Shown here piece by piece: positions 8,444 to 17,676 of a stretch of DNA of 20,052 nucleotides. The DNA comes from a virus: positions 1 through 20,052 of the IMG/VR virus record IMGVR_UViG_3300042448_000170; one strand, given 5' to 3'. How positions within the stretch are numbered: the stretch's first letter is position 1; the number at the start of each line of letters is the position of its first letter. The position numbers and the translations under genes are program-made. Under the pieces are notes generated by a model that worked only from the letters and a program-made list of their open reading frames with translations, ran no database searches and was not told the DNA's origin.

Positions 8444-10038
8444 AGTGTTTTACCTGTCTTAAGGAAGAAGTCGATCTTCTGAATTGAAAGAGGAGTACCA
8501 TCAATGTCGGACTCAAAGCCTAACTGAAGAACAGTACCAGAACCTGATGCTGGAATGTTAGCAATGTCTAATGCAATACCATTAGTGTATGTAGCTACAT
8601 TGTATTCGGATACATTATACTCAAACACCTCTACACGCTGTAGTACAATACCACGAGAGAAGTAGTTACGGGTGTAATCATATCCCCACTTAATAGCAAT
8701 AGGCTGGTTAGAACCGCCAATAGCAGTTACGTTGATACGCTTAAGAATCTTATTTGTAGTAGCAGAACCAAAGTCAAAGTAGTTAGTGAAGTATGTCATA
8801 CGATACCTAGCACCATCATCTTCATACAAATTGTACTTACCTATGTACCCTGGCTTACCAATCAATAAGTCTCTAGTTTGTGTTACACAGAAAGCTGTAG
8901 GATTAATCTGTTTCCATACAGTAGTTCTAGCTGCTCCATTCTGCAGTACACCTCTAGTGTCAAAGCAGTAGGTAAATCCTGAACTAGGTAAAGACAACAA
9001 GTAGAAAGCATCTGTAGGGAAGTAGGTAGCCTTAATGTTCTTAGCTGTCTCTGATGCCACTAAGGTTAAGAGCTCATCTCGTACATTCTTAGAGATATCC
9101 CTGAATGGTAATGACTTCTCTTGGATTACACGCTGTAAAGACTGAATACCAGTAGAGGACAAGAACAATAAGTCTGTACCAATCGATGCTACAGAGTCTC
9201 TAGCAATACATCCAACACCTACGATTACATCTTGTAGTGTCATTGCAGACGGATCTACAGGATTACTATAAATAACAATGTGCTTAGTACAGAAGATAAT
9301 CAAGAAGCCATTATGATCTGCGATAGCTACGATAGGATCATTGTTAGGAACTACTTCACTAATGTTAAGGTATCCTGATGTACCAGTCTTCCATTCAGCA
9401 GGGTTTAATAAGTCACTGAAGTACACAGTCTGACGACTACCTGCCATATCAGCTACCCAGACACGACCATAAGCAGTCATGACACAGTTAGGAGTAAAGC
9501 TAGTTACAGTCTGTCCTACTGGTAGGTTTGTAGCTACATCGCCTAGACGCTGAAAACCATAAGAACCAGTATGAGCATGAGCAGTAGCACCGAGCTTATG
9601 ATACAATAAAGCAGGATGTCCTTCTTGAACTAAGACAGCATGTCCTGAAGGAGTAGCACCTGTGTCATAAGGCATGCCACTGATCTGCCAGTTATCATCA
9701 GTTATCGTATAGGTTAAGTTACCTGTATCAGTACCGTTACGAACCACAGCCTCTGTTAAGGTAGTAGTTCCAGTGTATAGTTTGTTATTGGCTGCAGAGA
9801 TAACTACAGTACCGTCATCCTTAATAAGCTCATAGATGGCTTTAAACGATCCTGTAGACGCTGCAGATGTGTTGACCTTAGTCCACCCCTTACGAGCACC
9901 AATACGACCGTAGCGATCGATTACGCAGTTATTAGCCTCTAGTGCAAACCCACTGTCTAATTGAATAGAACTATCTTGGGTGTTTAACCCAGAGAATCCA
10001 GGAGCTGCAATCGAGCCAGTTGCTAGAGCTTCAGCCAT
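8440..10038 (-). CDS. Tail nozzle / tubular protein B-like (532 aa)
   Basis: I start at 10038 (MAEALATGSIAAPGFSG) because this ATG overlaps the previous stop (TAATG), as most genes here do. A start five codons earlier has no ribosome-binding site. The N-terminal block APGFSGLNTQDSS, then ANNCVIDRYGRIGARKGW, is common in large podovirus tail proteins placed after the gp11-like adaptor. The body (about 60-480) is beta-rich with repeated aromatic/Gly strands, for example GRVWVADMAGSRQTVYFSD and VGCIARDSVASIGTDLLFLS. This is consistent with a beta-propeller-like nozzle such as T7 gp12 or P22 gp10. I infer that it forms the tail tube end through which DNA leaves. The exact homologue is uncertain. 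Confidence 0.78.
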   Translation of the reverse strand: MAEALATGSIAAPGFSGLNTQDSSIQLDSGFALEANNCVIDRYGRIGARKGWTKVNTSAASTGSFKAIYELIKDDGTVVISAANNKLYTGTTTLTEAVVRNGTDTGNLTYTITDDNWQISGMPYDTGATPSGHAVLVQEGHPALLYHKLGATAHAHTGSYGFQRLGDVATNLPVGQTVTSFTPNCVMTAYGRVWVADMAGSRQTVYFSDLLNPAEWKTGTSGYLNISEVVPNNDPIVAIADHNGFLIIFCTKHIVIYSNPVDPSAMTLQDVIVGVGCIARDSVASIGTDLLFLSSTGIQSLQRVIQEKSLPFRDISKNVRDELLTLVASETAKNIKATYFPTDAFYLLSLPSSGFTYCFDTRGVLQNGAARTTVWKQINPTAFCVTQTRDLLIGKPGYIGKYNLYEDDGARYRMTYFTNYFDFGSATTNKILKRINVTAIGGSNQPIAIKWGYDYTRNYFSRGIVLQRVEVFEYNVSEYNVATYTNGIALDIANIPASGSGTVLQLGFESDIDGTPLSIQKIDFFLKTGKTL

Positions 10039-10685
10039 TAAATAGCCATCCAAGCAGATTCTTCAATGTAACGACCAGACTCAATAGCAATAGCATCAGC
10101 TAAGGACTGGTTATAAATGAATGCCATCTCACCTGCTAAGATACCACCGTCTTCACCACGCTCTGCGATAGCCCTTGCAGCAGCATTGAAAATGACAGGC
10201 TCAGAAGGAACTAATAGTTTATCAGCATCAGCAACTAAAGCTACTTGTGGTTTAATGACGTTAAAACGAACTTCATAAACCCCATTAGGAATAGGGAATA
10301 AGTCTACCTGTGTGTCACCGTTGGAGTTTGTACCGTTGAAGTTGTAGTACGCAGGAGAACCCTTTTGTGCTGAAGTTAAAAGGAACTGGTCGTTCATCCA
10401 ACGAGTAGTGGCATTCTGAACTACAGTATTACTGGTGTCATTTAAGACATCAATAACCCTGAACCGTTGTCCAGAACCAACAAGAATGTAGTTAAAAATA
10501 CCATCAGCAGTTGAAGCAGTAAGGGTATCTGACAATGCATTCCAAGCATAGGCATCTTCTACCTGACGCTTAGCATCGTTAACGAACTCACCAATAAGTT
10601 TAGAGTAAGCATTATCCGCTACAGAAGAAACCTCAGTTTCTCGTAGTCTGCGTAGTACAGAATTTACAAGTTGGATGTAGTTCAT
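10038..10685 (-). CDS. Head-to-tail adaptor / tail tubular protein A-like (215 aa)
   Basis: A 215-residue protein with the features of T7 gp11 and related adaptors. The N-terminus is helical and basic (MNYIQLVNSVLRRLRETEV). A conserved segment YSKLIGEFVNDAKRQVEDAYAWN follows (about 27-49), then a central beta domain (about 50-145) and a C-terminal helical part with EPVIFNAAARAIAERGEDGG. Adaptors of this type form a ring below the portal and join it to the nozzle, which fits the next gene. The ATG has AGGA five bases upstream and lies immediately downstream of a strong promoter, whose predicted start leaves only about five untranslated bases. The gene opens the tail/ejection/lysis unit. Confidence 0.8.
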   Translation of the reverse strand: MNYIQLVNSVLRRLRETEVSSVADNAYSKLIGEFVNDAKRQVEDAYAWNALSDTLTASTADGIFNYILVGSGQRFRVIDVLNDTSNTVVQNATTRWMNDQFLLTSAQKGSPAYYNFNGTNSNGDTQVDLFPIPNGVYEVRFNVIKPQVALVADADKLLVPSEPVIFNAAARAIAERGEDGGILAGEMAFIYNQSLADAIAIESGRYIEESAWMAI

Positions 10686-10734: not shown

Positions 10735-10980
10735 CTAGCAGTCCCACTTCTTAAGTGCTAGAGCCTTACGAGTTGGTCTACCCTTCTCATCCTTCATAGC
10801 CCCTTTAACACCACTCATACGAGCACAGAAGCTCTTACGACGACCAGCCGCTACAGGAGACTTCTTAGCCTCCTCAGCAGACACTGGAGGCTTAAGCTTA
10901 GAACCAGTCTTCTTGTTGTAGTAGTCTCTGCCCTTCTGATTGAGTCCACCTTCAGGGTTTTGGAACGCTTTCTTAGGCAT
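10735..10980 (-). CDS. Small lysine-rich phage protein (DUF6321-like, 81 aa)
   Basis: An 81-residue basic protein containing NPEGGLNQKGRDYYNKKTG, RRKSFCARMSGVKGAMKDEKG and a KKWDC end. I recognise this arrangement from small proteins of unknown function in many podoviruses and siphoviruses (likely the DUF6321 family). It has two cysteines (about 52 and 81), no membrane segment and a strong positive charge, so nucleic-acid or membrane-surface binding is possible but not shown. The start overlaps the preceding stop (TAATG) behind an A-rich GAAGAA sequence. It is the last of four tiny lysine-rich genes, and promoter P2 begins just after its stop. Confidence 0.8.
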   Translation of the reverse strand: MPKKAFQNPEGGLNQKGRDYYNKKTGSKLKPPVSAEEAKKSPVAAGRRKSFCARMSGVKGAMKDEKGRPTRKALALKKWDC

Positions 10981-11132
10981 TATTTCTTCTTAGCTGTCTT
11001 AGCAGCATCCTTAAAATCTTTAGCACTAGGAGCACCTTTGCTACCTACCTTACGCATCTTCTCACCAGAGCCAGCAGCGATACGCTTCTTCTTGGCTGCG
11101 ATGTTAGAATACAAACCAGGCTTAGTAGCCAC
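10980..11132 (-). CDS. Small lysine-rich phage protein, GTG start (50 aa)
   Basis: The sequence reads VATKPGLYSNIAAKKKRI, then GSGEKMRKVGSKGAPSAKDF, and ends in AKKK. Small proteins starting (M/V)ATKPGLY with a GSGEKMRKxGSKGAP core are frequent in phage structural regions, which makes this a real gene although it has no ATG. An in-frame TGA stands two codons before the GTG, so GTG is the only sensible start. It overlaps the preceding gene by 11 bases in another frame and the following ATG by one base. The charge is strongly positive with no membrane segment. The function is unknown. Confidence 0.72.
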   Translation of the reverse strand: MATKPGLYSNIAAKKKRIAAGSGEKMRKVGSKGAPSAKDFKDAAKTAKKK

Positions 11133-11265
11133 GACTCATGCCCATCTTCTTAGCTGGTTTAGCTTTAGGAGTAGTCATCTTAGCTCCTGTCTTCTTAGCA
11201 TACGACTTAGCTTCTTTCTTACCTTTAGCTGTGTATGGGAATTTCTTGTCTTTGACCATTGGCAT
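11122..11265 (-). CDS. Small lysine-rich phage protein (47 aa)
   Basis: A 47-residue frame, MPMVKDKKFPYTAKGKKEAK, then SYAKKTGAKMTTPKAK, ending MGMSRGY. The KKFPYTxxGxKxAxxYAKKTG pattern recurs in tiny phage proteins next to those on either side here. A good AAGGA site lies eight bases before the ATG. The gene starts one base after the previous stop and overlaps the GTG gene by 11 bases. About a third of its residues are lysine. It has no cysteine and no membrane segment. The function is unknown. Confidence 0.72.
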   Translation of the reverse strand: MPMVKDKKFPYTAKGKKEAKSYAKKTGAKMTTPKAKPAKKMGMSRGY

Positions 11266-11266
11266 A

Positions 11267-11413
11267 TTATTTCCTTTTCTTTGGTTGGGGTTTAGATTTA
11301 CCTGCTTTTGATAGGGCTATTGCAATTGCTTGTTTCTGTGGTTTACCAGACTTCATCTCTTTACGGATGTTAGTAGAGATAGTCTTCTGTGAAGTACCTG
11401 ATTTCAGTGGCAT
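11267..11413 (-). CDS. Small basic phage protein (DUF6496-like, 48 aa)
   Basis: I start at 11413 ([20 protein letters not shown]), 19 codons inside the longest frame. This ATG has a GGAAG site, lies two bases after the previous stop, and matches the usual beginning of the family. The core [20 protein letters not shown] resembles the DUF6496-type signature (GxPQKQAxAIAL) of short phage and bacterial proteins. The shape is a short basic helix, a turn at GKPQ, a second helix, and a lysine-rich tail (PKKRK). The function is unknown. It is the first of the four tiny lysine-rich genes. Confidence 0.75.
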
Positions 11414-11415
11414 GA

Positions 11416-11760
11416 TTAGCTTCCGTTCTGGTAGGCTGTGGATTGTACAATCTCTACTGTAAAGATACAACTCATAGTAGCTCCTGCTTCAGGAGTAGCA
11501 GTAACATAGTCGAACTCGTCCATAACCATACGACCTTGGTTAAACTGAAGAGCATCTCCTGCACCCAATGACTTAGCTCCTACGATAGGAACAGTGGCAG
11601 CTTCACTAACATCATGCACTGCAGCAGAGATAGCTTTAGTTGATCCACCGCTATTTGCTAGAAACAATAATGTGGCTATCGCTTTACATCCTTTAGGTAC
11701 TGTATAAATAGTATTAGATGAGCCAGCTGTAAGATTAGAAAATACTGTAAGTTCTCTCAT
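11416..11760 (-). CDS. Beta-rich small virion protein candidate (114 aa)
   Basis: A 114-residue protein, [20 protein letters not shown], then [21 protein letters not shown], and [10 protein letters not shown] near the end. The pattern of alternating hydrophobic residues with Gly/Ser turns suggests a small beta-sandwich, as in phage decoration or fibre-accessory proteins. There is no signal peptide and no membrane helix. The ATG lies two bases after the previous stop with no clear ribosome-binding site, so translation is probably coupled. It stands between the XhlA-like gene and the lysine-rich cluster. Its role could be decoration, fibre accessory or tail. I do not recognise a named family. 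Confidence 0.65.
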
Positions 11761-11762
11761 AG

Positions 11763-11969
11763 TTACTTTTTAAATATCATTTCTGAAACATAACTGATGA
11801 AAGCACCAGCAACTGAGGCAACACCCATCAATGCCCACAGAGAACCTTTACTACGCTCTGCCATAGCCACTAATCTTTTAATGTCAGCATCCATTGAGTT
11901 TACTTTATGCTCTAAGTTCTCAACAGCATTAACCAGTTTACCGTACTCTACGGGATTGATGTCGCTCAT
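11763..11969 (-). CDS. XhlA-like small membrane protein, possible accessory holin (68 aa)
   Basis: The N-terminal half is a predicted coiled coil (about 8-36, VNAVENLEHKVNSMDADIKR). It is followed by a single membrane helix (about 44-66, LWALMGVASVAGAFISY) and a KK end. This is the design of haemolysin XhlA-type phage proteins, which help membrane lysis in some phages. It starts by ATGA overlap with the S74 fibre gene behind a strong GGAGG site. A second holin candidate lies far away at 1299-1703 beside the endolysin, so this protein may be an accessory or have a different role in tail or membrane contact. Confidence 0.65.
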   Translation of the reverse strand: MSDINPVEYGKLVNAVENLEHKVNSMDADIKRLVAMAERSKGSLWALMGVASVAGAFISYVSEMIFKK

Positions 11970-12928
11970 ACTGCTGCCTCCAATGCTGCGATTCGTGCCG
12001 CTTGTGCGTCTACGGTTGCTTTAAGTTCTTGAATTGCTTTTACCGCAACGGCAAGGATAGCATCTAAACGCAAATTTTGAATACGATTTTCTTCGTCTTT
12101 AGCGCCTTCTGCGCCACTTGGTATTACTTCTTGTACTTCGTGTGCAATAAAACCTTCTTTAATGTCATCGCCAGCTTTAAACAAATTACCATAATCAGCC
12201 ATTTGATAAGTGACTGGGCGAAGTGCCATAACTCGTTCAATTGCTGGCGCAGTTTGTGTTTCTATATTTCGTTTAATTCGGTAATCTGACTGATATGCTA
12301 TGTTCCCAATAAAAGTAGAATCAATCCACACCCCTGCGTTACCAGTCCAGTTAATGTTAAACACATTAGCCGCGTCCCCCGGAACTCCAGACCCTGCTTT
12401 TGTATAAATACCTGCTGCAGAAAAAGCACCTGCAACTGTTAACTGTGCCCCTGAATATTGTGTAGTAGTTCCAATTAAGGCATTACCACTTTGGTTAATA
12501 CGCATCTTTTCATCACCAGTACCCCAGTTTGCTGCATCTGTGTTGCTGTCTACATAAAATACTAAAGGACCAACACCGTTTGGTGCTTGTCGTAGTTGGG
12601 CTATTGCTGCTTTTGCATAAGTTGAGTCAGAGGAAAACTCTACGCCCGCAAGACCGATATTTGAGTTATTATTTTGAGCCCTAATACCAACAAACCCAGT
12701 TCCATCAGCCCCAGTTGCTTGTAATCTTTGAACAGGACTACTAGTACCAATACCTACATTACCACTAGAATCAATACGCATGGCTTCTGTACCACCTTCA
12801 GAGAACGCAATCGTATCTGCTGCTGGGAAGAAAATACCTGTATTAGTGTCTGTACCTCGTATTGCAGGGGTAGCTGCTGTACCGTCTACATCGGATAAAC
12901 CGTCTGTACCATTTAGTATCAAAGCCAT
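11966..12928 (-). CDS. Tail fibre with C-terminal S74 intramolecular chaperone (320 aa)
   Basis: The N-terminal part (1-65) has the fibre pattern PAIRGTDTNTGIFFPAADTI, then GGTEAMRIDSSGNVGIGTSSP, seen in many phage fibres. Residues 66-210 are beta-rich. The C-terminal domain (about 211-320) is a peptidase S74 / intramolecular chaperone. It has SDYRIKRNI with the Ser-Lys pair S214 and K219, GFIAHEVQEVIP at 259-270, and a terminal coiled coil (289-318). In this family the chaperone folds the trimer and then cuts itself off at the serine. The mature fibre would therefore end near residue 213. Start by TAATG overlap, with GAGG upstream. It is probably a receptor-binding protein. Confidence 0.9.
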   Translation of the reverse strand: MALILNGTDGLSDVDGTAATPAIRGTDTNTGIFFPAADTIAFSEGGTEAMRIDSSGNVGIGTSSPVQRLQATGADGTGFVGIRAQNNNSNIGLAGVEFSSDSTYAKAAIAQLRQAPNGVGPLVFYVDSNTDAANWGTGDEKMRINQSGNALIGTTTQYSGAQLTVAGAFSAAGIYTKAGSGVPGDAANVFNINWTGNAGVWIDSTFIGNIAYQSDYRIKRNIETQTAPAIERVMALRPVTYQMADYGNLFKAGDDIKEGFIAHEVQEVIPSGAEGAKDEENRIQNLRLDAILAVAVKAIQELKATVDAQAARIAALEAAV

Positions 12929-13131
12929 TATACAAGTTCCTCTAAATAAGCTATACCGTCTATTACATTACCTTCTGCGTCTTGAAGTTCAACACCGTCA
13001 GCAAGGTCTTTTTTGAAGTTAGCGTAGTCTGTGTTTTCAAGTGAGAAAGGAATTTGTGCAAAATCAGATAATCGTTGAACATTTTTTTGCTGTCCAAACA
13101 TATCAAGTGGTAGTAGTTTATACATAATCAT
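12928..13131 (-). CDS. Small fibre-accessory protein candidate (67 aa)
   Basis: The start is set at 13131 (MIMYKLLPLDMFGQQKNVQR) because this ATG overlaps the preceding stop (ATGA) with a GGAG site upstream. The longer frame would begin with 40 cysteine- and tyrosine-rich residues that are only the shadow of the fibre gene. A start two codons later (MYKLLPLD) is equally possible. The product is acidic, with FSLENTDYANFKKDLADGVE and ending in IAYLEELV. It lies between two fibre genes, a usual place for fibre chaperones or assembly proteins, but I see no recognised domain. Confidence 0.68.
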   Translation of the reverse strand: MIMYKLLPLDMFGQQKNVQRLSDFAQIPFSLENTDYANFKKDLADGVELQDAEGNVIDGIAYLEELV

Positions 13132-14255
13132 AGCTCCGCAGATGCAGTCCAAGAACCGTAGTACATATAGGCAGTTCCAGAAAATCCCAACGCTGTGTTG
13201 AAACCTTCTGTAGTATATGATTGAGCGACAACACTGGTTGTATTTAACCAACCTGAACCGTTATATACACTCCATTGCCCAGATGTTCCTGGAATTGGAA
13301 GGTTTGTGTTTATAAATGTAATCGTAACAGCATCAGTTCTCATTGTGACTGGGTATTTTATCCAATTACCGTACGCAGCATTAGTGGCATATGTATTAAC
13401 AACTCCAGAACTAAACATTCCCGTTGCTAAGGCTGAGTTATTGGTCGCAACAACGTTTGTTGAGCTGCTTTTGCAGAAATACCGCTGACACAAAGCCAAC
13501 TCAGTACCATAATGTCTGTATTCAAATGAAGTAGCTTGTGTGCCTTTTTCAAGCTGAACCCCAGTAATGTAGAAGGTAGCACCGTTTGTACCGACTACGG
13601 ATGTTGCGCCTGTGGCTGTAACAAAGTTACCTGCCGACCAAGCACCAGCAGTTCCGCTAAATGTGCTACCTGTACCAATACTAAAATCGATACTAATACC
13701 TACACCATTATTTGTTAACCATGTTCCTGATGTATCGCCAGCAATAGTTATTGATTTCTGCTCCCAAGTATTTGCAGAAGATATTGTGTATGAAAAAGGA
13801 TAAGACCGATTTGCAGCGCTATTTCTTAATGCGCCACCAAATGTACCAGTTAATGAACTACGCACCCAAAAAGACAAAGTTACGGTAGCCGCATTCGCAG
13901 TTCCCCAGCCTAAATCTGCTATGTTAAATCCTTCAATTCGCTGGTCTATGAAGTAAAAATCGCTTGCGCCTAATGAGGTTGAGGCAAGTGATGTAGTTCC
14001 TAAATAATTAGTAAAACCAGCTGGCGGTGTTACAGACCCAGCGTTTTGTTGAATACTAAATTTAGATGTTTGAGATAACGCAGCGCTCCATCTATCAAGC
14101 GTATAGGTTGAAACTGAAGGAGTAACACTAGCACCAGCGTATCTTTGGTCAATACGACAGTCGCCATTAATTATTCTATTTTTAAATACTGAACTAATGG
14201 GTGCTAAAACTCCACCGCTTGCATCGTTTATACGATTCACCTGAAGTTGTGACAT
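13128..14255 (-). CDS. Tail fibre / receptor-binding protein, carbohydrate-binding-module-like (375 aa)
   Basis: The N-terminus, MSQLQVNRINDASGGVL, then FKNRIINGDCRIDQRYAGAS and YTLDRW, is common in phage fibres. The middle (about 60-235) has a jelly-roll pattern. It holds FYFIDQRIEGFNIADLGWG, TVTLSFWVRSS, and FYITGVQLEKGTQATSFEYR, all typical of CBM-like domains annotated in fibre proteins. A C-terminal domain (about 255-375) follows RHYGTELALCQRYF and is rich in aromatic and small polar residues, probably the variable tip. It starts by TAATG overlap with a good AGGAG site. Because it is separate from the stalk and S74 proteins, it may be a second fibre or a distal piece. Recognition as a fibre is firm, the receptor is unknown. 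Confidence 0.82.
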   Translation of the reverse strand: MSQLQVNRINDASGGVLAPISSVFKNRIINGDCRIDQRYAGASVTPSVSTYTLDRWSAALSQTSKFSIQQNAGSVTPPAGFTNYLGTTSLASTSLGASDFYFIDQRIEGFNIADLGWGTANAATVTLSFWVRSSLTGTFGGALRNSAANRSYPFSYTISSANTWEQKSITIAGDTSGTWLTNNGVGISIDFSIGTGSTFSGTAGAWSAGNFVTATGATSVVGTNGATFYITGVQLEKGTQATSFEYRHYGTELALCQRYFCKSSSTNVVATNNSALATGMFSSGVVNTYATNAAYGNWIKYPVTMRTDAVTITFINTNLPIPGTSGQWSVYNGSGWLNTTSVVAQSYTTEGFNTALGFSGTAYMYYGSWTASAEL

Positions 14256-14482
14256 TATGCAACTCCTAATAGTGCTTTAACTTCATCGGCAGTTAAACCA
14301 AGTGCAGATAGTTTAGCTAATGCAGAAGTCTTTGTATCAACAGCTACTTGTGCATCCGCTTCAGCTTGTGCAGTTACCGCAGCTAGGTCATAAGTTACTT
14401 CATTGCCTTCTATATCGTAAGCATTATTACCACGAATGGTAACTACTGTTGGGTTTAATTTATAAATAGCCTCGTGGTTCAT
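14255..14482 (-). CDS. Small fibre-associated protein, possible chaperone (75 aa)
   Basis: A 75-residue protein, MNHEAIYKLNPTVVTIRGNN, with AYDIEGNEVTYD. An Ala/Asp/Glu-rich helix (about 32-58, AAVTAQAEADAQVAVDTK) follows, and it ends in a small helical motif GLTADEVKALLGVA. Proteins with this layout usually follow phage fibre genes and are thought to help assembly. The start overlaps the preceding gene by four bases (ATGA), with GGAG nine bases upstream. It has no membrane segment and no catalytic motif. The role is inferred from position. Confidence 0.7.
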   Translation of the reverse strand: MNHEAIYKLNPTVVTIRGNNAYDIEGNEVTYDLAAVTAQAEADAQVAVDTKTSALAKLSALGLTADEVKALLGVA

Positions 14483-15009
14483 ACAGCAATCTCCGTAGCA
14501 GAAAGGGAATACGCAGCTGAAGGGTGTACAATAAACGCTGTTCCACCAGCACTAGCACAAGCCATAAAAATTGCATATGTTTGAGTGCTTGTAGTGCCAG
14601 GACTAAAATACATTGTGCTGCCCATTGAAATGTATGTTCCTGGATTACAATAACCACCACTATATGCACCGCCAGCATTTGTTCCGTTAGAGTATACTTG
14701 TGCAAGAGCAGGAACTACAGAACCTGTAGCCATAGCACTTAGCCAATCAACTCTAATTACACTATTTGCTCTTTTTGGGGTTATTGAAATTGTAATTCCA
14801 GTAGCTACAGCGGATGTTGAAGTTGTTGAAATACCTGCAGAATTTTTATCAGACACTTGAACTACTTGAATAACACTACCTGCTTGAGGGCTTTCAGTCG
14901 TAATAATAGTTCCGTTAGAAGCAGGAAGTGTCTGCGTAAAGTTACTAGCAGTTGCAGGCTCTTGGATGGTTATTTGTCCTCCAGCAGAGGACTGCAGAAC
15001 AATACTCAT
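14479..15009 (-). CDS. Short fibre / tip protein (176 aa)
   Basis: The N-terminal segment SIVLQSSAGGQITIQEPATA, then NFTQTLPASNGTIITT, is a frequent fibre element. It is followed by a beta-rich domain (about 45-176) with SVIRVDWLSAMATGSVVPAL and a Ser/Gly/Tyr-rich end (YSGGYCNPGTYISMGSTMYF). This resembles the separate C-terminal heads seen in many environmental phage fibres. Start by ATGA overlap with the nuclease gene and a good AAGGA site. The protein is short for a full fibre, so it may be a distal tip that joins the stalk protein encoded two genes upstream, or an independent small fibre. The receptor is unknown. Confidence 0.72.
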   Translation of the reverse strand: MSIVLQSSAGGQITIQEPATASNFTQTLPASNGTIITTESPQAGSVIQVVQVSDKNSAGISTTSTSAVATGITISITPKRANSVIRVDWLSAMATGSVVPALAQVYSNGTNAGGAYSGGYCNPGTYISMGSTMYFSPGTTSTQTYAIFMACASAGGTAFIVHPSAAYSLSATEIAV

Positions 15010-15425
15010 ATTGTTTCCTTGTAAGTCTGTAGATATTTAATTGCGCTCTTCATGGTCTGTTCAGATTCTTTAAAATGTTCTATTCCTAAATTACAAGCAG
15101 TGCATAACAAACCTCTAATGCTGCCTGTTGTGTGGTTGTGGTCAACGCATAAAGTATTAAGTTTAATATTACATATCTCACAACAACCCCCTAACTTTTC
15201 ATACTTTACTGCATATTCATCATAAGTAATGTTTATGCCTTGCGCCTTCCATGCTTTTCCACGGTACTTCTTTACACCTGATTCACTCTTTCTTCTTTTA
15301 TTATCAACTACTCGTTGACACATTTTACAACAAGGTCTTATACCTGAAGGTCTATCATATCTTGGCGTGTACTCTGATGCAGGTTTGTCAATTTTACACT
15401 TAGAACATACTTTATTTAAAACCAT
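15006..15425 (-). CDS. Endonuclease VII-like (HNH/treble-clef) free-standing nuclease
   Basis: A 139-residue protein of the recombination endonuclease VII (PF02945-type) group. It has two zinc-binding cysteine sets: C7 and C10 with C33 and C36 in the N-terminal half, and C82 and C85 with C108 and C111 in the nuclease domain (YEKLGGCCEICN and RGLLCTACN). The catalytic segment LCVDHNHTTGSIRGLLC carries the conserved DHNH (95-98) and is followed by N112. Stand-alone proteins of this type in phages are mostly mobile homing-type endonucleases. True resolvases belong with replication genes, while this one is wedged between two fibre genes, two bases after the stalk stop and overlapping the next start. 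It has no clear ribosome-binding site of its own. Confidence 0.85.
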   Translation of the reverse strand: MVLNKVCSKCKIDKPASEYTPRYDRPSGIRPCCKMCQRVVDNKRRKSESGVKKYRGKAWKAQGINITYDEYAVKYEKLGGCCEICNIKLNTLCVDHNHTTGSIRGLLCTACNLGIEHFKESEQTMKSAIKYLQTYKETI

Positions 15426-15427
15426 AT

Positions 15428-16624
15428 TTACAAGATAACCCAGCGACTGTTTGACGGTACAGTTACGGTAACACCAGAAGCGATTGTTAAAGCTCCTACA
15501 GAGTGTGCGTTATTACCTGCAGTGATGGAGTAGCTGGTTGAGATGGTGTTGCTGTGTTCGTATAAACCTTTAGTGGTTTTGTTTGCATCCGTATCTAAAG
15601 GAGACCAAGAAGCAGTAGTACCGTCAGTGGTTAAGTATTCTCCTGCGTTACCAGTCTGAGAAGGTAAAGCATCAACATTAGCCCATGATGTAGCTGTACC
15701 ATTGGTAGTTAAGAACTTACCAGAGTTACCTGTTTGACTTGGTGTGTAGCTTGCTGCTAATGCTTCAGAAGCAGCAGCATTGGTTGCTGAGGTTGCTGCA
15801 GCACTGGCTGAGTTACTAGCATTTGTTGCGCTAGTGGCTGCTGCGCTGGCAGAGTTGCTTGCATTAGTAGCTTGGGTAGAAGCTGTAGTTGCTGAACCAG
15901 AAGCTGCTGTAGCACTAGAGGCTGCGTTACTTGCAGAAGTAGAAGCAGCAGATGCACTGCTCGATGCATTAGTAGCCTGAGTAGTGGCTATACCTGCTTG
16001 AGTAGTAGCTGTTGTAGCTGATGTTGAAGCTGAAGAAGCAGAAGCTGCTGCGTTGGTTTCTGATGTAGCTGCATTGCTTGCAGATGTAGAAGCCGCTGAC
16101 GCAGACGATGCAGCAGCAGTTGCTGACGTAGAAGCATTGGAAGCACTCGTAGAAGCAGCGGTTGCGCTGTTGGATGCATTAGTGGCTGAAGTAGCTGCAG
16201 CAGTAGCTGAGTTACTTGCGTTAGTTGCTTGAGTTGAAGCTGTAGATGCGCTAGAGGAAGCTGCAGAAGCACTAGATGCAGCAGCAGTTTGTGCAGTCTC
16301 TGCGTTTGTTTCTGCTAGTTCAGCAGCAGTTTGAGCTGTCTCTGCAGCCGCTTGTGCAGCCTCAGCCGCAGCTTGCGCTGTCTCTGCATTGGCTTCAGCA
16401 GTCTCTGCGTTAGTTTCTGCAGTTTCTGCATTAGTCTCTGCAGTCTGTGCATTGGTTGCAGCGGTAGAGGCTGTTGATGCAGAACCCGCAGCAGCGGCAG
16501 CACTCGCAGCAGCAGCATCGGCATCAACCTGAGCTTCGGCAACGAGTTCACGAATTAATAGGGCTTCGCTTGAAGAATCCGCTACAGCGTCTCCTGCACC
16601 ACCTGCGCCTCTGTAGATTGACAT
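15428..16624 (-). CDS. Tail fibre stalk protein, Ala/Ser/Thr heptad repeats (398 aa)
   Basis: The N-terminus, MSIYRGAGGAGDAVADSSSE, is a widespread phage fibre anchor that attaches to the tail. Residues about 36-291 are almost only A, S, T, N, E and Q in seven-residue units. Charged heptads such as ETAEANA and ETAQTAA come first, then neutral ones such as SATNASN and SASAAAT, as expected for a long thin parallel coiled coil. Two 20-residue copies of a PSQTGN..G..LTT.GT..SW motif follow (295-314 and 321-340). The end is a short beta domain finishing TVPSNSRWVIL. An AAGGAG site lies six bases before the ATG. It follows the capsid gene after an 89-base gap with two hairpins. The protein probably forms the shaft that carries the distal pieces encoded downstream. 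Confidence 0.85.
   Translation of the reverse strand: MSIYRGAGGAGDAVADSSSEALLIRELVAEAQVDADAAAASAAAAAGSASTASTAATNAQTAETNAETAETNAETAEANAETAQAAAEAAQAAAETAQTAAELAETNAETAQTAAASSASAASSSASTASTQATNASNSATAAATSATNASNSATAASTSASNASTSATAAASSASAASTSASNAATSETNAAASASSASTSATTATTQAGIATTQATNASSSASAASTSASNAASSATAASGSATTASTQATNASNSASAAATSATNASNSASAAATSATNAAASEALAASYTPSQTGNSGKFLTTNGTATSWANVDALPSQTGNAGEYLTTDGTTASWSPLDTDANKTTKGLYEHSNTISTSYSITAGNNAHSVGALTIASGVTVTVPSNSRWVIL
15605..15664 (-). repeat. 20-residue fibre motif, copy 2
   Basis: Encodes residues 321-340 of the stalk protein, beginning PSQTGNAGEYL. It matches the unit at 15683-15742 at most positions. This motif commonly marks the junction between stalk and head in phage fibres. 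Confidence 0.75.
15683..15742 (-). repeat. 20-residue fibre motif, copy 1
   Basis: Encodes residues 295-314 of the stalk protein, beginning PSQTGNSGKFL and ending in a conserved SW. Six residues separate it from the second copy. Confidence 0.75.
15752..16519 (-). repeat. Heptad-repeat stalk region
   Basis: About 256 codons, nearly all GCN, ACN, AGY/TCN or AAY, encode seven-residue units. Longer near-repeats such as TNASNSATAAATSATNASNSA-like blocks occur several times. The low complexity leaves long stop-free frames on both strands, none of them a plausible gene. Such DNA can change length by slippage or recombination. Confidence 0.85.
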
Positions 16625-16651
16625 TTATTCTCCTTGACTTGTTTAAAGACT

Positions 16652-16675
16652 CTTGTTAAAGAACCCTTAAACAAG
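16652..16675 (-). promoter_or_regulatory. Second hairpin between capsid and fibre genes
   Basis: CTTGTT pairs with AACAAG, with two more inner A-T pairs around a loop near GGGTTC. On the minus strand it is followed by AGTCTTTAAAC, which is not a strong T tract. It lies 27 bases before the stalk start codon, just upstream of the ribosome-binding site. It may be an mRNA-stability or attenuation element. Confidence 0.45.
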
Positions 16676-16677
16676 AC

Positions 16678-16695
16678 AGCCCTAATTAAAGGGCT
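16678..16695 (-). terminator. Weak terminator candidate after the capsid gene
   Basis: AGCCCT pairs with AGGGCT around TTAATT, about 19 bases after the capsid stop on the minus strand, and is followed by GTCTTGTTT. The T tract is broken, so termination would be partial. Partial termination after the capsid gene is known in T7-like phages, where it lowers expression of the next genes. Confidence 0.45.
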
Positions 16696-16713
16696 ATCCT
16701 GAGTTGTTACTGC

Positions 16714-17676
16714 TTAGCCGTTTACAGCTAATACAAAGCCAGTGTCTGGACGCAAAGTCTTAACACCGTACAGCGTGTCAGCAGTGTACAAGGTTGAGAG
16801 ATACTCTTGCTTGTACTGAGTCTGTGAACGAACACCCATCTGCTCAGCCAACACCATTGTATCACGGTGAGCCAAGATAGCAGCTTTAACATCGCCACCT
16901 ACATCGTTAGCTGCATCTGTTTCGATAACAGGGCAGTTGCTCGATACATAGATATCGATACCATATAGCTGACCAATCATGCCGTTCTGAACACCACGAC
17001 CATCAACGAAGTCGCTAGAATTGTAGCGATCGATGCCCATGATAGCAGCACGGAGTGATGGAGGAACTGCGAAGAAACGACCATCCATTGGGGTATCAGC
17101 ATCGTCCATACGCTTGATCAAGGCACGGAAACCAGCATCAGTAAATACGTCAGCAGCAACTACAGTGTCAGCAGCGTAAGCTGTCAAACCAGTAGAAGCG
17201 TCGATGTAGAAGCTGTTGCTATGAACCCAGTCAGAACCAGAACCATTGTCATCACCGAAAGTCTTAGCCAATTGGAACAAGGTGTCGTCAATCTTCTTAG
17301 CCAATGCATAGCCAGCATCTTCTGTGTAGAAGCGACGGAGTGATGCCAAAGCCTGAACTTCAACGATGTCCTCAATGAAACGTGAGTACTCAAAGTGCTG
17401 GTCTACAGAAACAAGAACTTCAGTCTCGGTATCAGCTTGGATTGTTACAGTTGTGTTAGCTGCCTTAGCAGTAGCTACACCACGAGTTGGCTTAGGAATG
17501 TGAAGCGTGTCACCTTTCTTGCCCTTCATGGTCATCTTGTTTACGAGGTTAGCGAGAACCAAGTTTTTCTTATAAGCAGCTACTACTTCGTCACTCCAAA
17601 TTTCTGGGATAAACTTGTCTGCTTGTGTCTTTGCTACGATTGTTCCAGATCCACCTGGATAAACTGCTGTTGCCAT
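16714..17676 (-). CDS. Major capsid protein (320 aa)
   Basis: A 320-residue protein directly after the scaffold gene, with a very strong AGGAG site nine bases upstream and a C- and T-rich codon choice suited to high expression. The start MATAVYPGGSGTIVAKTQAD, then FIPEIWSDEVVAAYKKNLVL and VNKMTMKGKKGDTLHIPK, is typical of podovirus capsid proteins with the HK97 fold. Later segments include DADTPMDGRFFAVPPSLRA and GQLYGIDIYVSSNCP (spine-helix and beta-strand region), and the C-terminal GVKTLRPDTGFVLAVNG. No protease gene is visible, so maturation probably occurs without cleavage, as in T7. A consensus TATAAT without a good -35 lies just upstream. Confidence 0.9.
   Translation of the reverse strand: MATAVYPGGSGTIVAKTQADKFIPEIWSDEVVAAYKKNLVLANLVNKMTMKGKKGDTLHIPKPTRGVATAKAANTTVTIQADTETEVLVSVDQHFEYSRFIEDIVEVQALASLRRFYTEDAGYALAKKIDDTLFQLAKTFGDDNGSGSDWVHSNSFYIDASTGLTAYAADTVVAADVFTDAGFRALIKRMDDADTPMDGRFFAVPPSLRAAIMGIDRYNSSDFVDGRGVQNGMIGQLYGIDIYVSSNCPVIETDAANDVGGDVKAAILAHRDTMVLAEQMGVRSQTQYKQEYLSTLYTADTLYGVKTLRPDTGFVLAVNG

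Follow-up and report, generated by a model that had tools for sequence, protein, structure and literature searches.

The window analysed here is a virus record of 20,052 bases in which the structural gene block lies on the minus strand. Along the direction of transcription the order was portal, scaffold, capsid (phrog_267), tail-fibre genes, p6, p5, p1-p2-p3-p4, an SU10-type adaptor and a tail protein. The four small genes p1 to p4 together span 679 bases (11413-10735, minus strand): p1 at 11267..11413 (48 residues), p2 at 11122..11265 (47 residues), p3 at 10980..11132 (50 residues) and p4 at 10735..10980 (81 residues), all on the minus strand. The four consecutive frames were thus found exactly as a first-pass annotation had described them, including the claimed overlaps of up to 11 bases and the single GTG start; p2 and p3 overlap by 11 bases, p3 and p4 by 1 base, and it is p3 that begins with GTG. 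The claim that all four products are very basic also held, with pI values of 11.4, 10.4, 10.6 and 10.3 and net charges at pH 7 of +12.5, +12.5, +11.5 and +14.5 for p1, p2, p3 and p4, respectively. Lysine makes up 20-30% of the four proteins and 30% of p2. Directly upstream of the cluster lies p5 (11416..11760, minus strand), which encodes a conserved acidic protein of 114 residues (phrog_1276, E=1.3e-5), and directly downstream lies the head-tail adaptor gene (10038..10685, minus strand; SU10_adaptor, PF24175, Pfam E=5.2e-11). The major capsid protein gene (16714..17676, minus strand; phrog_267, E=5.5e-50) is upstream of both an exchangeable tail-fibre cassette and the cluster.

Among relatives, the capsid gene and the cluster are separated by about 0.5 to 5 kb, a distance that changes via fibre-gene exchange. 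The tail-fibre genes between capsid and p5 (11770-16700) differ among relatives, and in one related locus (L015) the capsid-to-p1 distance is 664 bases, versus about 5.3 kb in the window; from these data, 11770-16700 was deduced to be a hot spot of fibre exchange. A gene of the recombination endonuclease VII family lies within this region (15006-15425, minus strand; PF02945, E=8e-17) and is possibly a homing or mobile endonuclease tied to that exchange. The nearest isolates found were the freshwater cyanopodoviruses CHP58, Pf-WMP3 and A-4L, with capsid proteins 26-33% identical to that of the window, and a megablast search of the whole window against phage records gave no match.

The reading of p1-p4 as chance open frames in A-rich DNA was prompted by their shortness and low-complexity composition. 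The median dN/dS against divergent relatives was 0.15 for p1, 0.20 for p2, 0.12 for p3 and 0.10 for p4, and the differences from these relatives were concentrated, in strong excess, at third codon positions. From these substitution patterns, purifying selection is judged to act on all four frames. The overlaps are also conserved, being −11 or −20 bases for p2/p3 and −1 base for p3/p4 in most loci, and 48 of 88 relatives share the position of the GTG start of p3, a further 6 having ATG there. With dN/dS at 0.10-0.20 and both overlaps and order conserved, the chance-frame reading was rejected and is given a negligible probability. The frames of 47 and 50 residues, for which lack of conservation in relatives had been named as a refutation, are both conserved, p2 in about 50 viral-contig loci. 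The warning that such genes are easily missed in annotation was well founded: a tblastn search located DUF6321, the family of p4, in S-CBP4 (KC310804, NC_025464) and p1 in MED4-184, in each case at a place with no annotated gene.

Dozens of related viral contigs show the same order, p1-p2-p3-p4 immediately before the adaptor gene, which bears out the proposed co-occurrence of tiny basic proteins in a structural region. The adaptor was directly downstream of p4 in 79 of the 83 loci holding both, p5 precedes p1 in many syntenic loci, and the order p1-p2-p3-p4-adaptor is kept while adaptor identity drops to about 38-50%. With p4 as bait, all four genes were found in 43 of 80 loci and p1, p3 and p4 in 19 more, and with p1 as bait, p1 stood alone in 42 of 80, counts that are approximate for p1 and p2 because iterative HMM matches partly crossed between these two in lysine-rich stretches. 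The many loci with p1 alone indicate that this gene also lives elsewhere.

The first-pass annotation held that each protein resembles a recurrent phage protein of no known function, and profile searches supported this for p1, p3 and p4. The p4 protein matched DUF6321 (PF19846) at E=1.4e-27 over positions 2-72 of the 72-position model (96.6 bits; cut-off, 28.5), with a conserved RRKSFCARM core and KWxC end, and by this score it is a full-length member of the family. Likewise, among the PHROG profiles, p1 matched phrog_2423 (E=3e-19, model positions 1-47 of 52) and p3 matched phrog_16028 (E=1.1e-23, positions 2-49 of 50), and by these matches the two proteins are members of those families. The p1 protein shares one motif with DUF6496 (PF20106) and is not a member of that family, scoring 11.7 bits against a cut-off of 24. 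For p2, the resemblance went no further than a borderline match to phrog_33179 (E=0.05, positions 1-42 of 42), and tblastn found no match to it in 50,697 phage records. The same type of search matched p4 in 270 phage records at E<=1e-5, and p1 in 440 and p3 in 84 at E<=0.01, and these families were seen in many viral contigs besides.

Predicted structures did not point to a known fold. The AlphaFold2 model of p4 was mostly helical (pLDDT 84, pTM 0.62), and that of p1 was a hairpin of two helices bearing a flexible basic tail (pLDDT 82), the helices being predicted at residues 9-21 and 26-36 and the tail being lysine-rich. A PDB fold search gave no match at E<=0.001 for the p4 model and short helix hairpins only, none at E<=0.001, for the p1 model. 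PDB sequence searches with p4 and p1 gave nothing significant, and none of p1-p4 matched HU, H-NS or protamine-like DNA-condensing families in Pfam or NCBIfam.

The arrangement of these families in other phages was compared. In the pelagiphage HTVC168P, a basic protein of 35 residues, p3 and p4 lie between scaffold and capsid, with p3 and p4 overlapping by one base; in cyanopodoviruses, p4 and then p3 are found between scaffold or capsid and tail genes; and in the Prochlorococcus phage MED4-184, p1 and four other small basic proteins precede the capsid region. These arrangements indicate that co-residence is not special to the lineage of the window, and it was concluded that p1-p4 belong to a pool of basic modules occurring in unrelated phages. 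The five consecutive MED4-184 proteins (L161:6001-7198) have 42-92 residues and a K+R content of 25-40%; the last of them is phrog_7595, and the CRP-5 relative of this protein additionally matches a portion of phrog_220 ("minor head protein and DNA pilot"). Fusions were also observed. At L142:6001-6342, L125:2474-2827, L106 and L121, p1 is joined to a conserved NYTKPxMRKRxxxxxKAGxKGGxxGQWSARKAQ module (phrog_17747), and a protein of 212 residues at L131:95-730 has p1 at its N terminus together with a CWKDYEMVGMKKG...PVPNCVP module like one in DUF6321 polyproteins, so p1 and p4 appear to have module partners in common. In S-RIP2 (L159:7989-8501), p3 reads through into an outer-membrane-like barrel gene (Phage_OMP, PF24653). 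This was the sole fusion suggestive of membrane contact, one of three jobs that had been proposed for the cluster; in the near relative KBS-P-1A these are two distinct genes (L262:1489-1644 and 1628-2002), so that a stop was probably lost in S-RIP2, and the membrane reading was rejected.

The most informative relatives of p3 and p4 were those of T4-like phages, identified as such by Pfam matches to gp14, gp15, gp16 and gp17 at the leader-bearing loci. There, DUF6321 (to which the PHROG profiles phrog_4689 and phrog_10346 correspond) mostly forms the C-terminal module of longer proteins, which reach about 900 residues and are encoded near gp16/gp17, whereas p4 is a stand-alone protein. The shorter T4-like DUF6321 proteins (92-189 residues) open with leaders such as MKSYSELKNLTE|AAW, MRSYEEFKRLTE|S and MKTFKQYITE|A. 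In five loci (L223, L226, L227, L233 and L242), p3 stands behind a leader of this type, e.g., MREYKEFKELCE|AKRGLYANIHAKRKR, and is followed by DUF6321; phrog_11180 corresponds to this p3+p4 fusion behind one leader, whereas the window encodes p3 and p4 separately, with a one-base overlap. For comparison, T4 IPII and IPIII begin MKTYQEFIAE|A and IPI begins MKTFKEF. Judged from sequence, the leaders on the T4-like DUF6321 proteins match the capsid-targeting sequence of the T4 internal proteins. In T4 IPIII, the first ten residues suffice for head entry, with positions 4 and 7 serving in targeting and 8 and 10 in processing (PMC9026906).

This assignment is supported by the distribution of the leader pattern. 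A start of the form M[KR]x[YF]x[EQK][FLYI] was present in all 15 complete T4-like DUF6321 ORFs shorter than 200 residues when an internal start was allowed (11 of the 15 at the first start) and in only 11 of 2687 other ORFs, 10 of which are one family adjoining DUF6321 genes; the T4-like sequences are mutually related, so Fisher p-values for the pattern overstate independence, and the pattern is plain in the list. An [LIVMF]xE|[AGS] site just before DUF6321 was found in 40 of 66 non-redundant proteins (61%), as against 18% of their other windows and 6% in other ORFs, and prohead-protease cleavage may be proposed at these candidate E|[AGS] sites of the T4-like relatives. In the literature searched, a capsid targeting sequence was brought up in a cyanophage context by a T4 review only. 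The N termini in the window, among them MPKKAFQN, show no capsid-targeting leader with an aromatic residue at position 4, a hydrophobic residue at position 7 and an E|A/S end, nor could a prohead protease gene be recognised in the 20-kb window. Since the proteins of the window have no leader and no protease was recognised, the T4 route cannot be theirs.

Other proteins with leaders of this kind were seen in the same neighbourhoods. A second family adjoining DUF6321 genes, of about 105 residues, begins with the T4-like leader MKSFNQFMTE|SINIAGDFNGTL... and was seen at L174:4059-4379, L182:2468-2797, L210:4373-4708 and seven other loci; its copy in S-SZBM1 (S-SZBM1_191) is acidic, with a pI of 4.7. 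In the same T4-like cyanophage, S-SZBM1_194 (L170:15253-17376, minus strand) is a modular basic protein of 707 residues in which a T4-like YREFIAE|G site (542-549) is soon followed by a Pfam match to S-adenosylmethionine lyase (PF23780, residues 567-675); the protein may be head cargo with an anti-restriction activity. The "virion structural protein" S-SZBM1_190, encoded between gp16 and gp17, was suspected of carrying DUF6321 and on checking did not.

The sister polyprotein S-SZBM1_194 is also one of the facts that favor a reading in which p1-p4 serve host takeover or counter-defence after delivery together with the DNA, the head being only their means of transport. The other is the precedent of T4, whose internal proteins are ejected and whose IPI is anti-restriction and inhibits a type IV restriction enzyme (PMC9026906). 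However, the T4 internal proteins change fast, whereas p1, p3 and p4 have been conserved between phages and hosts that are very far apart, and no enzymatic or known inhibitor fold was found, which makes this reading rather unlikely. Host takeover, another of the three jobs proposed, could at most be a sequel to ejection.

Direct evidence for the presence of these families in virions was available for homologues of p4 and p1. The S-CREM2 protein gp137, encoded between gp16 and gp17, ends in DUF6321 (Pfam E=3.5e-10), and in the proteome of CsCl-purified S-CREM2 virions it was represented by 4 unique peptides giving 4.1% coverage, the part covered being unstated (PMC10665884). ORF22 of SCUT-S1 (S1_022, 12282-12488) is the counterpart of PB1 gp20 (phrog_2423, E=7e-29); mass spectrometry of CsCl-purified particles yielded 7 peptides of it, covering 77% of the protein (PMC6521218). 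While p1 matches the same model, the Pbunavirus protein is extended at its C terminus and contains far less lysine, as does ORF22 itself. The PB1 gp20-type gene of KPP22M1 is annotated as "virion protein." One leader-bearing DUF6321 protein, S-SZBM1_192 (leader MKTFKQYITE), is absent from the list of 30 virion proteins of that phage. Small lysine-rich proteins are poorly detected with trypsin, and the absence is for that reason a weak negative. A term search of the P-SCSP1u cryo-EM paper found no mention of the p3/p4 relatives.

The SCUT-S1 sample consisted of DNA-depleted ghosts (PMC6521218), indicating that ORF22 can be retained by the shell when the DNA leaves. That retention would suit shell- or portal-bound minor head proteins acting as cement or plug on the inner capsid face or the portal, with the charge serving attachment rather than DNA organisation or ejection, and so would the predicted fold of p4 (pLDDT 84) and its conserved residues beyond the lysines. 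Such a role is nevertheless considered quite unlikely, as the T4-like relatives use an internal-protein leader and not a shell-protein architecture, and the p1-p4 sequences are 20-30% lysine. The particle data also bear on a purely assembly-stage role, in which the proteins would act in the prohead, by bridging acidic scaffold, capsid and portal or by starting packaging, and be gone before the mature particle. The position of the genes between or beside scaffold, capsid and adaptor fits such a role, as do the strong acidity of nearby scaffold proteins (pI 4.6 in HTVC168P and 4.1 in S-RIP2) and the fusion of p1 to a protease-scaffold protein, p1 forming the N terminus of the head maturation protease of Obolenskvirus AB1. 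It was judged unlikely because mature particles gave good coverage of the p1 homologue and virions contained a DUF6321 protein.

The positions of the stand-alone genes are for the most part consistent with the head as well. The p3 and p4 genes lie among head genes in the pelagiphage and the cyanopodoviruses, as stand-alone genes of these families mostly do; in CRP-5, p3 is at the end of the structural block. The p1 gene is found outside head genes in Caulobacter phage Ccr34, where it lies among tRNA genes, and in the Zobellviridae phage PP21, where it adjoins a lysozyme-like gene. These two cases would accord with late or early non-virion proteins that act in the infected cell, for instance by binding nucleic acid, and are merely lodged near head genes. 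Against this, homologues were detected in virions, relatives carry targeting leaders, and linkage to head genes was consistent in most lineages examined, and this reading was deemed very improbable.

The relatives of p3, p4 and p1 link these proteins to the inside of the head, p1 also through its place at the N terminus of head-maturation proteases, and p1-p4 are probably packed beside the DNA like the T4 internal proteins. The preferred reading, held at a probability of roughly 0.6, is that p1-p4 are late head-internal proteins contacting the packaged DNA and that they may also be delivered into the host. Of the three jobs originally proposed, it is thus the one inside the head that is favored, by the T4-like leaders, the virion mass spectrometry of homologues and the head-gene neighbourhoods. 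For p2, a role in the head would follow by association only. Under the preferred reading, p1-p4 would be expressed late, together with capsid and adaptor. In the T4-like relatives, entry into the procapsid would be by leader, followed by protease trimming, and in the phage of the window it may be leader-less, e.g., bound to scaffold, portal or DNA. The proteins would then stay in the mature head, where the lysine-rich chains would neutralise and organise the packaged DNA, and some might accompany it into the host. In T4 heads, only the lysines of internal proteins were seen contacting DNA phosphates (PMC3012670).

By this proposal, p1-p4 would be free-standing, leader-less counterparts of the internal-protein cargo that T4-like phages target to the capsid and trim by protease. 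T4 IPI, IPII and IPIII are small, basic and head-associated, and p1-p4 are similarly small (47-81 residues) and basic (pI 10.3-11.4). The T4-like relatives of p3 and p4 share the T4 type of leader ending in E|A/S, but the window proteins do not, and they are for that reason regarded as like the T4 internal proteins in working and not as members of the class. No sequence similarity was detected between p1-p4 and the mature parts of the T4 internal proteins, and the latter are variable whereas p1-p4 are conserved across unrelated phages. As to presence inside the mature head, one of the marks of the T4 class, the virion data for p1-p4 come from homologues alone (SCUT-S1 ORF22 and S-CREM2 gp137). 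A more general scheme is put forward tentatively, as a possibility less likely to be right than wrong: podoviruses, siphoviruses, Pbunavirus, Obolenskvirus and T4-like phages might draw on shared, interchangeable lysine-rich modules to supply the protein component of the packaged genome, a kind of "phage chromatin," with T4-like phages loading them as leader-targeted polyproteins and phages that lack a T4-type prohead protease using operons of leader-less mini-proteins instead.

In the literature searched, no earlier report linked DUF6321, phrog_2423 or phrog_16028 to the head, and DUF6321 itself was unmentioned. These families are widespread and have no assigned function, and a link to the head interior would give many "hypothetical" genes a testable role. 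It would also extend the internal-protein idea from T4 to small podoviruses without the T4 targeting system, and it raises the question of how these phages load basic proteins. Finally, the leader-bearing relatives draw attention to a class of head cargo among marine T4-like phages; at least one of these phages may have an anti-restriction enzyme on board.
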